Assembly: GCF_024296685.1 (NCBI RefSeq)
Contig: NZ_CP100763.1
Span: 1,426,001 to 1,490,000, forward strand
Length of the DNA stretch: 64,000 bases
Direction of reading: 5' to 3'
Origin: Natrinema marinum
GTDB taxonomy: Archaea > Halobacteriota > Halobacteria > Halobacteriales > Natrialbaceae
In this document: positions 39,887-45,044 of the stretch, one piece after another
Layout of the letters: every line of letters starts with the position of its first letter
Numbering within the stretch: position 1 is the first letter of the stretch
Notes under the pieces: generated by a model
What the model saw: the letters and a program-made list of their open reading frames with translations, nothing else
What the model was told of the DNA's origin: nothing
The model's database searches: none
Translations under genes and position numbers: made by a program

Positions 39887-40030
39887 ATACGGGTTCGACG
39901 CCGCTGTCGGACAAAACGCTTTAGGCGACGGTCGCGGTCCCCTGATCGCCGCGTCACTGATCCTGCGATCGTTCAGTCACTGACTGTCGGCTGACAGCAC
40001 TGTCCGGTTGGCCCCGATTTTTGCGAAGGC

Positions 40031-40037
40031 TTTTATA
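40031..40037 (+). promoter_or_regulatory. Likely distal promoter (TATA) of fttA
   Basis: TTTTATA is the best TATA box in the 457-nt gap before fttA. Transcription from it would start near 40060 and give a 5' leader of about 280 nt, long for this group. Confidence 0.4.
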
Positions 40038-40143
40038 CCACGCAAAGAATAGCGTCGAGTAAGCGGGTTCTCCCTGGAATTGTCCCGCACGGACCAGGAT
40101 AACCGATCCGGGAGCGTGTTCGTCAGGCACGGAGTAGGATACG

Positions 40144-40347
40144 ATGATCCGGACACCGAGACGGAGTGTGAGCTACGTTGTCACCCGTGGGCGACGTGAC
40201 TCACGACCGGTTCCGACGCGACGGCCGTCGAACGGCGGCCGTCACCGGACCGCCTTCCGCTCGCTGTCACCGATCGCGAACGCTTCGCCTGCCGCCGCGT
40301 GCGGCCCCGGACGGCGAGTTCACGCAAGCCACATTGGCGACCTATGA
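40144..40347 (+). other. Possible upstream ORF overlapping the fttA start
   Basis: A 67-codon frame from ATG 40144 ends with TGA at 40345-40347, overlapping the fttA ATG at 40344 in an ATGA junction. Its product would be very arginine-rich with no family match, and the base composition is not clearly coding. It could still act as a leader peptide for translational coupling. Confidence 0.25.
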
Positions 40348-42278
40348 GTACTGTAGAGCAGCAACTCGACGATTTGAAAGCACAGATCACGAGCGAGTTA
40401 CCGAGCGATATCTCGGTCTCCTCGGTGAAATACGAGGGCCCCGAACTGGTGGTCTACACTCGCGATCCGAAGAAGTTCGCCCAGCAGGGTGATCTCATCC
40501 GACAACTCGCGAGCAAACTCCGCAAGCGGATCACCGTCCGGCCGGACCCAAGCGTCCTCTCGCGGCCCGAACAGGCCCGCGAGGAGATCATGAACGTCAT
40601 CCCCGAGGACGCGGGCGTCACCGACCTCGACTTCCACGCCGACACCGGCGAGGTCGTCATCGAGGCCGAAAAGCCCGGTATGGTGATCGGCCGCCACGGC
40701 TCGACGCTCCGCGAAATCACGAAGAACGTCGGCTGGACACCCGAAGTCGTCCGCACGCCGCCGATCGAGTCCTCGACCGTCTCGAACGTCCGCAGCTTCC
40801 TCAAACAGGAACGAGACGACCGACGCGATATCCTCGAGAAAGTCGGCCGACAGATCCACCGCGAGGAGATGTCCGACGACGAGTACGTCCGCATCTCGAC
40901 GCTGGGCTGCTGTCGCGAGGTCGGACGGGCCTCCTTTATTCTCTCGACGCCCGAGACGCGCATCCTCATCGACTGCGGGGACAAACCCGGCGCGGAAGGC
41001 GAAGTGCCCTACCTCCACGCGCCCGAGGCGCTCGGGGCCGGTCCACAGACCATCGACGCCGTGGTCCTCACCCACGCCCACCTCGACCACTCCGCGCTGA
41101 TCCCGCTACTGTTCAAGTACGGCTACGACGGCCCGATCTACTGCACCGAGCCCACGCGGGACCTGATGGGCCTGCTGACGCTCGACTACCTCGACGTGGC
41201 CGCCAAGGAAGGGCGCGCTCCGCCCTACGAGAGCGAGCAGGTCCGCGAGGCGATCAAACACACCATTCCGCTCGAGTACGGCGACGTCACCGACATCGCG
41301 CCGGACGTCAAGCTCACCTTCCACAACGCCGGTCACATCCTCGGCTCGGCCGTCTCGCACTTCCACATCGGTGACGGCCTCTACAACGTCGCCTTCTCCG
41401 GCGACATCCACTACGAGGACACCCGCCTGTTCAACGGCGCGGTCAACGACTTCCCGCGCGTCGAGACGCTCGTCCTCGAGTCGACCTACGGCGGTCGCAA
41501 CGACTACCAGACCGATCAGGAAGACTCCGAGCGCAATCTCAAGCAGATCATCAACGACACCTACGATCGGGGCGGCAAGGTCGTCATCCCCGCCTTCGCG
41601 GTCGGTCGGTCTCAGGAGCTCATGCTCGTCCTCGAACAGGCGATGCGCAACGGCGACATTCCGTCGATGCCGGTCCACCTCGACGGGATGATCTGGGAGG
41701 CGACGGCGATCCACACCACCTATCCCGAATACCTCCGCGACGATCTCCGAGATCGGATCTTCCACGAGGACGAGAACCCGTTCCTCGCCGAGGAGTTCAA
41801 CCACATCGACGCCGGCGAGGAGGAACGACAGGACGTTGCCGACGGCGACGCCTGTATTATCCTCTCGACCTCCGGGATGGTCACCGGCGGCCCGATCATG
41901 TCCTGGCTCTCCCACATCGGCCCCGACCCGGACTCGACGCTCGTCTTCGTCGGCTACCAGGCCCAGGGAACCCTCGGGCGGCGCATCCAAAACGGCTGGG
42001 ACGAGATTCCGACCAGCGAGGTCGGTGCCATGGGCAACGGCGGTGGCCGCGGCACCCTCTCGCTGAACATGGATGTCGAGACCGTCGACGGCTTCTCCGG
42101 CCACGCCGACCGCGCCGGCCTCGAGAACTTCGTCAAGACGATGAACCCCCGCCCCGAGAAAGTGCTCTGCGTCCACGGTGACGAACGCTCCACGCAGGAC
42201 CTCTCGAGCGCGCTCTATCACAACTACGACATGCGCACCTTCGCGCCGAAGAACCTCGAGACCTTCCGCTTCCTCTGA
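40344..42278 (+). CDS. fttA: Transcription termination ribonuclease FttA (aCPSF1)
   Basis: 644-residue KH/metallo-beta-lactamase/beta-CASP ribonuclease, the archaeal relative of CPSF73 that ends transcription. The N-terminal KH-like domains (about 1-150; GMVIGRHGSTLREI) bind RNA. The MBL domain has LTHAHLDHSAL, HNAGHILGS and SGDIHYED; the beta-CASP part has IPAFAVGRSQELML, STSGMVTGGP and FSGHADRAG, and the last His is in CVHGDERS. ATG at 40344 gives MSTVEQQLDDLK. It is preceded by a long leader and followed by an array of perfect hairpins, both unusual. Confidence 0.95.
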   Translation: MSTVEQQLDDLKAQITSELPSDISVSSVKYEGPELVVYTRDPKKFAQQGDLIRQLASKLRKRITVRPDPSVLSRPEQAREEIMNVIPEDAGVTDLDFHADTGEVVIEAEKPGMVIGRHGSTLREITKNVGWTPEVVRTPPIESSTVSNVRSFLKQERDDRRDILEKVGRQIHREEMSDDEYVRISTLGCCREVGRASFILSTPETRILIDCGDKPGAEGEVPYLHAPEALGAGPQTIDAVVLTHAHLDHSALIPLLFKYGYDGPIYCTEPTRDLMGLLTLDYLDVAAKEGRAPPYESEQVREAIKHTIPLEYGDVTDIAPDVKLTFHNAGHILGSAVSHFHIGDGLYNVAFSGDIHYEDTRLFNGAVNDFPRVETLVLESTYGGRNDYQTDQEDSERNLKQIINDTYDRGGKVVIPAFAVGRSQELMLVLEQAMRNGDIPSMPVHLDGMIWEATAIHTTYPEYLRDDLRDRIFHEDENPFLAEEFNHIDAGEEERQDVADGDACIILSTSGMVTGGPIMSWLSHIGPDPDSTLVFVGYQAQGTLGRRIQNGWDEIPTSEVGAMGNGGGRGTLSLNMDVETVDGFSGHADRAGLENFVKTMNPRPEKVLCVHGDERSTQDLSSALYHNYDMRTFAPKNLETFRFL

Positions 42279-42285
42279 AAGTCTC

Positions 42286-42410
42286 CGAAAACGCGGAGGC
42301 GTTTTCGAGAAGCCAAAAATCGCTCCGCGATTTTTGAGCTCCCTCGGCGAGCCCTGGCGGGCTCGCTCCGCGGCTTCGCCGCTTCGCTTCGAGGTCGCGA
42401 AGCGACCTCG
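42286..42410 (+). repeat. Array of four or five perfect hairpins after fttA
   Basis: Stems: CGAAAACGC/GCGTTTTCG (42286-42307, loop GGAG); a 10-bp stem 42314-42323 with 42327-42336 (loop TCC); GCGAGCCC/GGGCTCGC (42347-42366, loop TGGC); GCGGC/GCCGC (42370-42382); CGAGGTCGC/GCGACCTCG (42390-42410, loop GAA). The first is 8 nt after the stop of fttA. The stems are all perfect and differ from each other in sequence. Confidence 0.85.
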
Positions 42411-42673
42411 CACCGCTCGCCCTTTCAATGTCCGCCAGGACCGCACTCGCACGCCGCGCGGTCGGCCTGCCCTCCCCCGTGACTCGAGCGCTCGCCCCGA
42501 GGGGAGGCGAACGCTCGAGACGGCCACAGCGGCCGATCGATCGGAGTGGTCGACCGTCGCACCGCCGTGGAGGGTCAGAACGCGACCTCACGGCGACGGA
42601 CGCGCGATGGCACGGCGGCGGAGGCGAACCCGATCAGGGATCACCGCGGCCGGTCGCCGGAGTCGTCGTCTCG
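42411..42673. other. Intergenic region, no gene recognised
   Basis: About 260 nt between the hairpin array and the convergent BluB gene. Overlapping frames are arginine-rich. Nothing else is recognised. Confidence 0.4.
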
Positions 42674-43333
42674 CTATCGGCGGTCGTCGCCCTCCCATCG
42701 CTCTTCGTGGACGAGCGTCTCGACCTCGAGTCGGTCGCGCCAGCCCTCCCGCTGGAGGACCGGCTCGTCGGGGAAGCCGTCCGCCGGATAGCCCACACAG
42801 AGATAGGCGACCGGGTTGACGTGCGGCGGAACACCGAGTACCTCCTGCACCTCGTAGGGATAGAGGACGCTCACCCAGCCGACGCCGACGCCCTCCGCTC
42901 GAGCGGCCAGCCAGAGGTTCTGTACGGCGAGACAGGTCGAGTAGACATCAGTCCGCTTCATCGAACTGCGGCCCAGGACGTGGGGCGCGCCGCGAGTCGG
43001 ATCGCAGGTCACGCAGATGTTGACGGGGGCGTCGCGGATCCCCTCGAGTTTCAGGTCGGCGAACTCGCTTCGGCGCGGCTCTTCGTACCCCTCGCGGGCG
43101 GCGGCGATCGCCCGCTCGGCGATCGCAGCGATCTCGGCTTTCGTCCCCTCGTTCTCGATGACGACGAGGTCCCAGGGCTGCGAGAAGCCGACGCTCGGGG
43201 CGTGATGGGCAGCGTCGATGATTCGCTCGAGTACGTCGTCCGGAATCGGCTCGTCGCGAAATCGCCGAATATCGCGTCGGGCGTAAATCGTCTTGTAAAC
43301 CGCCTCGCGTTCCGCGTCGCTGAATACAACCAT
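42674..43333 (-). CDS. bluB: 5,6-dimethylbenzimidazole synthase BluB
   Basis: 219-residue flavin destructase of the nitroreductase fold, which breaks FMNH2 with oxygen to make the lower base of cobalamin. The family signatures are clear: RRDIRRFRDEPIPDDVLERI near residue 19, AHHAPSVGFSQPWDLVVI, KLEGIRDAPVNICVTCD, GAPHVLGRSS, YSTCLAVQNLWLAARAEGVG and VAYLCVGYPADGFPD. No other cobalamin genes are in the window. It is monocistronic and convergent with the fttA region; the upstream gap to 43430 is short. Confidence 0.92.
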   Translation of the reverse strand: MVVFSDAEREAVYKTIYARRDIRRFRDEPIPDDVLERIIDAAHHAPSVGFSQPWDLVVIENEGTKAEIAAIAERAIAAAREGYEEPRRSEFADLKLEGIRDAPVNICVTCDPTRGAPHVLGRSSMKRTDVYSTCLAVQNLWLAARAEGVGVGWVSVLYPYEVQEVLGVPPHVNPVAYLCVGYPADGFPDEPVLQREGWRDRLEVETLVHEERWEGDDRR

Positions 43334-43430
43334 TGTTTACTGTGTGAAAGTAGAGTTGCATAAAGGCGCTGGCTGACTGGCCGCGCGCCGACTCGAGTCC
43401 CTTGCCGCGATCGCCGTCTTCCGGTGCCGA

Positions 43431-44354
43431 TCACTCGGCCTCGGGGGCCTCGGCGGGATCGACGACTTCGTCGGTTTCGGGGTAGACGCCGACCTGCTCA
43501 CAGACATCGGCCATCGGACACGCTTCGGGGTCCTCGAGGCAGGCCGGCTTCCGTGCCCGGCAGTACTCCCGGCCGAATTGGATCGTCGCCGTGTGGCCGA
43601 AGCCACACTTGGCCGCGGGCACGTCGCGCTCGAGGACCGCACGAACCCCCTCGTGGTCGGCCTCTGGCGGCGCGATCCCCATGCGCCGATAGATCCGGTG
43701 GACGTGCGTGTCGACGGGGAAGACGCCGCCACGGCCGCCCGAAAAGAGCAGGACGCAGTCCGCCGTCTTCGGCCCGACGCCGCGGACGGAGAGCAGCGTC
43801 TCTCGCACCTGGGACGGCTCTTCGTCTTTCACGAACTCGTCGAAGGCCGCGGCGGAGCCGAACTCCTCGAGCACCCACTCGGCGACGTCGATGATGATCT
43901 CCGATTTCTGGTTGTACAGGCCCGCCGAACTGATCGTTTCGGCGAGCGTCGACTGTTCGGCGTTCGCGAGCGATTCGGCGAGATCGATTTCGTCCGCTCG
44001 CGATCGCCCGCTCACGGCTTCGCCGTTCGCATCATCGAGACCCTCACGTCGTTCGCGCCTCGCACCGCTCGCGCTGCGTGCGTCGCGTTGTGACGCGCTA
44101 CCATCGTAGCGCTCGAGCAGGGCGTCGTGGGCCGGCTGGCTCGCCTTGTCGCTCGTGTTCTGGCTCAGGATCGTTCGAACGAGGCAGGTGAAGGCGTCCT
44201 GCCCGCCGTACGTTTTCTGCCAGTACAGTTCACCCAGCCGGTCGACGACCAGTTCCGCGCGGGTGTCCGCGGTGGCCGGATCGAACTCGGCCGCCGCACC
44301 GCCGCCGTCCGCGCCGCCGCTGATGTTCTCGGTCGGCTCCGGATCGTCGCTCAT
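43431..44354 (-). CDS. nth: Endonuclease III (base-excision DNA glycosylase/AP lyase)
   Basis: 307-residue HhH-GPD glycosylase that removes oxidised pyrimidines and nicks AP sites. The helix-hairpin-helix with catalytic Lys is SVRGVGPKTADCVLLF, the catalytic Asp is in FPVDTHVHRI. The C-terminal iron-sulfur loop has four cysteines with spacing C-X6-C-X6-C-X5-C, where the usual spacing is X6-X2-X5. An insertion of about 45 residues rich in Arg, Ser and Asp (about 85-125) splits the N-terminal helical region and makes the protein longer than the usual 210-230 residues. Confidence 0.93.
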   Translation of the reverse strand: MSDDPEPTENISGGADGGGAAAEFDPATADTRAELVVDRLGELYWQKTYGGQDAFTCLVRTILSQNTSDKASQPAHDALLERYDGSASQRDARSASGARRERREGLDDANGEAVSGRSRADEIDLAESLANAEQSTLAETISSAGLYNQKSEIIIDVAEWVLEEFGSAAAFDEFVKDEEPSQVRETLLSVRGVGPKTADCVLLFSGGRGGVFPVDTHVHRIYRRMGIAPPEADHEGVRAVLERDVPAAKCGFGHTATIQFGREYCRARKPACLEDPEACPMADVCEQVGVYPETDEVVDPAEAPEAE

Positions 44355-44432
44355 ACCCTCGCGTTAGAACGTGGACGGCAAAACGACGGCGGAACCGTCA
44401 GCGACTCGAGGCAGTCCGGGTCGCCGACGAGA

Positions 44433-44846
44433 TCACTCGACCGAAATCGTCACCGTCGCCTCGGCGCCGTCGGCCAGCGCCGCCACGAGGTCGCGATCGA
44501 ATCCCTCGGCCGCGAACGCGGCCCCGTTCACGATCGTCCGATCGTCGACGTAATCGCTGGTCCGACCGACCGCACTACGCTCGTTGGTGAACTCGAGCGC
44601 GGGATCGCCTCGTCCCGTCACCGACTCGCGGTGGCCGTCGGCCTCGATCTCGAACGTGATCGTCGCGTCGGCGTCCCGGCAGGCCGCGACGAACTCGGGG
44701 TCGAAGTCTGCGGGTGCGCGGTCGGCTTCGATCGCGAGGATGCAGTCGCCCGCGGGGGTGAGGTAGTCGTCCGTCGTTACCTCGAAGGTGCTCGCATGCT
44801 CGGCGGTGACGTGCTCGTGGCCGCGAGCGTGAATGACTTCTTTCAT
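44433..44846 (-). CDS. DUF371-family protein
   Basis: 137-residue archaeal protein of unknown function. The N-terminal IHARGHEHVTAEHASTFEVT and LTPAGDCILAIEAD are the conserved features of DUF371; the rest alternates strands. It is cytoplasmic. It lies 78 nt downstream of the nth start on the other side of a short gap, same strand, and may share a transcript with nth (DUF371 first). Confidence 0.8.
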   Translation of the reverse strand: MKEVIHARGHEHVTAEHASTFEVTTDDYLTPAGDCILAIEADRAPADFDPEFVAACRDADATITFEIEADGHRESVTGRGDPALEFTNERSAVGRTSDYVDDRTIVNGAAFAAEGFDRDLVAALADGAEATVTISVE

Positions 44847-45044
44847 GAGTGGGAGTTCGGTGCCGGCCGGAAAACGGGATCGAATCCGAGCCGAAGCCGA
44901 TAGTGGACTCGAGCGCCCATAGGGAGGCTTTCGGATCGGACGCCTGGTCGGTCAGCACCGTCGCCTGTCGGGCGAGAGTCACAGTGAACAGCGATGTTCA
45001 GCCGAAACAGAATTGATTATTTATGCCCCGGATATACTGTAACT

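Follow-up and report, generated by a model that had tools for sequence, protein, structure and literature searches.

The hairpin array directly downstream of fttA in Natrinema marinum is probably a layered composite, in which an old 3' end of the gene, built on the hairpin h3, was later joined by mobile twin-hairpin insertions, with stems renewed at the DNA level. The array lies in a window of 64,000 nucleotides, corresponding to positions 1426001-1490000 of the 3.77 Mb genome. In the proposed mechanism, h3 (loop TGGC) and the U-containing stretch that follows would form the fttA 3' end. Twin elements of about 50-60 nt, in which a linker of 4-10 nt joins two perfect hairpins whose loops are mostly of 3 nt, would have inserted beside or inside the h3 palindrome, once or repeatedly, in different species. 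Template switching or hairpin inversion would then copy one arm from the other, flip the loops and renew perfect pairing. The inserted units could supply U4 or U5 on each strand, so that fttA and its neighbour would share a symmetric 3' end, and the region would act as a passive, roughly symmetric terminator for both convergent genes rather than as an FttA-specific sensor. It is also possible, as a tentative and broader proposal, that tiny haloarchaeal mobile twins of 50-60 nt target hairpins, insert into palindrome arms (even those of their own kind) and in frame into essential genes (valS), keep their arms perfect and their loops random by inversion, and pile up on the fttA hairpin.

Layered organization of the fttA array

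The fttA gene, encoding the beta-CASP ribonuclease termination factor aCPSF1, occupies positions 40344-42278 of the forward strand, including the stop codon (TIGR03675, E 4.9e-292), and its product matches the KH_TffA, Beta-Casp and RMMBL profiles. The convergent bluB is on the reverse strand at 42674-43333 (TIGR02476, E 3.6e-83). The initial annotation described four perfect hairpins of 8-10 bp and a short one between 42286 and 42410, and all of them are present, starting 8 nt past the fttA stop: h1 (CGAAAACGC[GGAG]GCGTTTTCG, 42286-42307, 9 bp stem), h2 (CAAAAATCGC[TCC]GCGATTTTTG, 42314-42336, 10 bp), h3 (GCGAGCCC[TGGC]GGGCTCGC, forward strand, 42347-42366, 8 bp perfect, with 9 pairs scored in relatives), the short hairpin GCGGC[TTC]GCCGC (42370-42382, 5 bp) and h4 (CGAGGTCGC[GAA]GCGACCTCG, 42390-42410, 9 bp). 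The array does continue, however, past 42410 to about 42527. In the predicted RNA fold the segment TGAAAG, which includes the stop codon (42276-42281, forward strand), pairs with CTTTCA at 42422-42427 and encloses the whole array; this AAAG...CTTT frame is retained in relatives. The folding energy of 42276-42430 is -84.5 kcal/mol, compared with -57.3 +/- 3.9 for shuffled sequences (z -7.0). No match to Rfam was found within 40000-45000. A pseudoknot between the TGGC loop and the downstream CCGCCAGG (42432-42439) was considered; it is seen in N. marinum, but was rejected because the pairing is lost in relatives that carry CCACCAGG or have the loop inverted.

Such clustering is unusual. The array is the sole place within the window with at least three such hairpins per 200 nt, and strict twin hairpins number 8 in 864 kb (23% of the N. 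marinum genome), as compared with 0-1 in 12 first-order simulations; two of these eight belong to the fttA array. A general enrichment of hairpins in intergenic regions is weak, coding regions being equally rich, so that the tight twins alone are unusual. Likewise, purine-rich 5' arms do not constitute a general rule (mean 0.48-0.59, with no clear pattern).

The fttA 3' regions of 29 genomes of the same genus and 80 other haloarchaeal loci, with some species in both sets, were compared, and those bearing an array were aligned, except for L105, where the fttA end is wrong. The aligned rows have a common frame, (G)AAAGCCCTCG - 9-bp stem - TGGC - 9-bp stem - TCGCCCTTT(T)C, surrounded by discrete two-hairpin units whose presence varies by species. 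Unit U2 (42282-42340, about 59 nt) is composed of h1, a 6-nt linker and h2; it is carried by N. marinum, L097 and L110, persists as a decayed remnant in L031, and most relatives have no insert separating TGAAAG from CCCTCG. Unit U4 (42367-42416, about 50 nt, with ends uncertain by 1-2 nt) comprises the short hairpin and h4 and is limited, among the aligned rows, to N. marinum and L097. Two further units occur in relatives. U1 (ACCGGAGCGCC.. + CGGAAATC.., 54 nt) is present in L090, L091, L093, L101, L110 and L013, and the alignment of L091 with L089 gives its size with clean edges. In L109 and L099, as compared with L107, U3 (57 nt) interrupts the left arm of h3. Decayed remnants of h1 are also visible in L085 and L095. 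For each of the four units, which differ from one another in sequence, carriers and non-carriers can be aligned cleanly on both sides of the insertion.

In the fttA gene tree the unit-bearing species are scattered over several branches, and therefore units must have been gained or lost repeatedly. Judged from the alignment, the array is a composite of an old h3 and twin-hairpin units of about 50-60 nt inserted later. The units at fttA probably reached their sites as DNA and did not originate in place, although neither a target-site duplication nor a transposase was identified for them.

Twin hairpins at other genes and a possible shared transcript end

Similar twin hairpins are found at other places of the N. 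marinum genome, namely in a divergent gap (L130, 17443-17604) and at L178 (10648-10695), L122 and L167. Twins also occur within the ends of elements that carry TnpB-type ORFs (L136, L137, L138 and L145), the ORFs of L145 and also L137 matching OrfB_IS605. As a separate observation, twins at L136, L138, L145, L152 and L154 lie within the palindromes that terminate probable IS605/TnpB-type elements. The arms of h1, with other loops, were detected in 11 of the 121 family genomes, in a few of them at fttA itself and otherwise at unrelated places, among which are the ends of these TnpB-type elements. Exact-arm searches of the N. marinum genome gave 2 sites for h1 and 1 for h2, which rules out high-copy repeats, and the intergenic region as a whole has no long second copy there, only short partial matches. 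Another dispersed element, GGCCTGCCCTCCCCC-(palindrome 42483-42519)-GGCCAC, follows at 42464-42527; four copies are present in the 864 kb sampled (one in the window, two in L132 at 3571 and 5297, one in L169 at 3799), and its palindrome, imperfect here, is perfect in most relatives. It matched no known counterpart in our comparison.

One family of twins also lies inside coding genes. Its full form is GAGAATCGC[NNN]GCGATTCTC(GC)AGCCCATCAGAAGTGC[NNN]GCACTTCTGA, abbreviated as GAGAATCGC[NNN]GCGATTCTC..TCAGAAGTGC, with freely varying triloops; the first hairpin is present in 13 of 121 family genomes. In several ORFs this element is read in one same frame, as RESxSDSRSPSEVxxTSEDAS. The host ORFs match ValRS, LeuRS, enoyl-CoA hydratase (menB-like), AsnC/NirDL-type, Lhr-type helicase and alpha/beta hydrolase proteins, the insertions in the leucyl-tRNA synthetase (L216) and Lhr-type helicase (L223) ORFs being in frame. 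The same is true of the hydrolase-type ORF at L167, 8962-9014 (G000:C1:348962-349014), whose ortholog in G016 is shorter by more than 30 residues at the element position and represents an empty site. In valS (L201, the valS ORF of G028, and L202-L205), the site is empty in most relatives, a first palindromic insert is found in four, and in one a 60-nt twin is nested in frame in an arm of this older in-frame insert. Such nesting in a palindrome arm is common to the valS twin and to U3 in h3. The fttA units resemble the in-gene element in architecture, without clear sequence likeness; for h2 the common sequence is limited to AATCGC[NNN]GCGATT. This likeness in architecture suggests that both belong to one mobile class.

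The position of the array between two convergent genes raises the possibility that it was selected as a bidirectional terminator, with U-run hairpins built up in the gap and DNA mobility incidental or absent. The initial annotation regarded the region as poor in U-runs, which is misleading. Indeed, runs of at least four T do exist in the 395-nt gap and, on either strand, are confined to h1 and h2 (T4 at 42302-42305 and T5 at 42331-42335 on the forward strand, mirrored on the reverse strand). A bidirectional 3' end at the array is plausible, since the gap has no U/A runs outside these two hairpins. Hairpins with loops of 3-4 nt reach 52 per 100 kb in convergent gaps, a value to which the array itself contributes, as compared with 18-34 elsewhere, and in a reporter assay in Haloferax volcanii, 59% termination was obtained with a single hairpin (PMC7237163). 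On the other hand, similar units are located in a divergent gap and within coding genes, the hairpins hA and hC carry no U-run, and sister species have lost units or retain them in a decayed form. Selection for bidirectional termination as the origin of the array appears unlikely.

The suggestion of a strong 3' end, made earlier, holds up as plausible within the composite reading: a conserved h3 stands behind the stop, followed by CCCTTT(T)C, with h1 and h2 providing U4/U5 on both strands. The candidate fttA 3' end is TCGCCCTTTCA (42417-42427, forward strand), a pyrimidine/U stretch 3' of the core that is conserved to Halostella. Counting against this reading, several close relatives manage fttA with no run of at least four T in the gap. 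A roadblock specific to bluB transcription, also suggested, found no support. The array stays behind fttA whatever the convergent neighbour: besides bluB, this can be an ABC permease, a histidine kinase or some other gene (identities other than bluB being read from the sequence), and it is because the neighbour differs between species that the link to bluB was rejected.

The core hairpin h3 and the probable renewal of perfect stems

Among the hairpins of the array, h3 is linked to fttA. Two-sided changes affect all 9 pairs in a set of 13 distinct sequences drawn from five genera, in which 95.7% of the cells are paired; the covariation score was reached by none of 500 shuffles, and slid controls fail. 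The loop TGGC is invariant save for one inversion, GCCA, in L089. With a threshold of at least 7 of 9 pairs, h3 was detected at 28 of 109 fttA loci (some species being counted twice), in Natrinema, Haloterrigena, Halopiger, Natronococcus and, together with its conserved flanks, in Halostella, which belongs to another family. The flank CGCCCTTTCAATGTC occurs in 5 of 121 genomes, always at fttA and nowhere else in the 121. In Halostella pelagica (L050), a five-hairpin array occupies the first 170 nt past fttA, and its TGGC hairpin and flanks are common with Natrinema. In one genome, G007, fttA is present twice with identical scores, on separate contigs (L093 and L112), perhaps an assembly duplication.

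The covariation has to be read together with the behaviour of the loops. Both loop orientations were observed on the same or similar arms in 5 of 7 hairpin types: TCC/GGA in h2, TGGC/GCCA in h3, TGC/GCA in hA, TTC/GAA in hB and AGGTTC/GAACCT in hC. The h2 loop is the inverted GGA in L097 and GAA in L110, and the h4 loop is TGC in L097. Replication template switching is known to leave loop inversions and one-step compensatory changes (PMC8794818). Since the loops flip, perfect pairing is maintained at least partly at the DNA level. The comparison of compensatory changes proposed in the initial annotation therefore has a mixed outcome: stems are conserved inside the genus, where drift without stem conservation was not seen, but stem covariation speaks less strongly for an RNA function here, given that the loop inversions indicate DNA-level homogenization. 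For an RNA function of h3, the constant TGGC loop is a better argument than covariation. From this conservation, h3 may be a functional 3' hairpin, and it is by itself a candidate for an fttA-specific function.

Autoregulation as the purpose of the whole array, with the fttA mRNA level controlled through binding or cleavage of the structured 3' region by FttA itself, is quite improbable. Such a function could explain why h3 and its flanks are exclusive to fttA, with strong covariation and a constant loop, and why h3 recurs in another family. However, h3 was not found at most other haloarchaeal fttA loci compared. The remaining hairpins (h1, h2, the short one and h4) are insertions specific to certain lineages: a few relatives carry them, they are decayed in others and missing from most haloarchaeal fttA genes, and their architecture recurs at unrelated genes. 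Furthermore, archaeal terminators are U-tracts that do not strictly need a hairpin, and aCPSF1 is reported to recognise U-tracts (PMC8716108). A purely local origin, each hairpin being made in place by template-switch errors with no insertion, agrees with the own sequence of every fttA unit, the flipping loops and the one-step perfect stems that template switching allows (PMC8794818), but is very unlikely, since discrete units made of two hairpins and measuring 54-59 nt, together with near-identical copies of one such unit that recur with sharp edges at many places, require copying between sites.

Comparison with known systems

With the layered composite as the preferred reading, what appeared to be an RNA regulatory array becomes evidence for a little-studied process of archaeal mobile DNA, in which hairpins would land in hairpins and sometimes in frame within essential genes. 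It also illustrates that compensatory base changes, the standard proof of an RNA structure, can come from DNA template switching, and it singles out h3 as the one real candidate for an fttA-specific function, testable alone.

Bacterial clustered-hairpin terminators (PMC8355165) and the hairpin terminators of Haloferax volcanii (PMC7237163) share with the array hairpins placed right after the stop that may end transcription; the fttA array differs from them in that conservation at the gene does not extend to most of its units. Among mobile palindromes, Rickettsia palindromic elements (RPE), REP/BIME and SMR-A/PATE were considered, and none fits the twin units on all defining points. REP and BIME are short palindromes, often paired, that are common at the 3' ends of genes and in convergent gaps (PMC3733652). 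Unlike them, the fttA hairpins have hypervariable loops and no identified RAYT, no GTAG/CGTC tag flanks h1-h4 or the in-gene element, and the few exact-arm sites of h1 and h2 given above differ from the high copy number of REP.

RPE are short palindromes inserted in frame in likely functional protein genes (PMC3733652). In-frame insertion and empty sites are shared by the in-gene element, in valS and the hydrolase gene, whereas the fttA units are intergenic. The haloarchaeal units also differ from RPE in being twins of perfect hairpins with 3-nt loops. No archaeal equivalent of such in-frame palindromes was found in the literature searched, the coverage of which was incomplete.

PATEs are haloarchaeal, palindrome-bearing, linked to IS605-type elements and as short as 52 bp (PMC3119063); they resemble IS605 ends. 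No IS605 target oligonucleotide or conserved terminal sequence was seen at the fttA units, the ends of which are defined only roughly, to a few nt. SMR-A of Haloquadratum walsbyi are likewise haloarchaeal and transposase-free, with no target duplication described (PMC3119063). By description they are about 110 bp long, conserved and homogeneous, with terminal inverted repeats, in contrast to the diverse twin units of 50-60 nt. The insertion sites of SMR-A are palindromes near the ends of IS605-type elements and of PATEs (PMC3119063); similarly, the twin units are located inside the ends of TnpB elements, as in the OrfB_IS605-type case L145 and also in L137, and inside the h3 palindrome.
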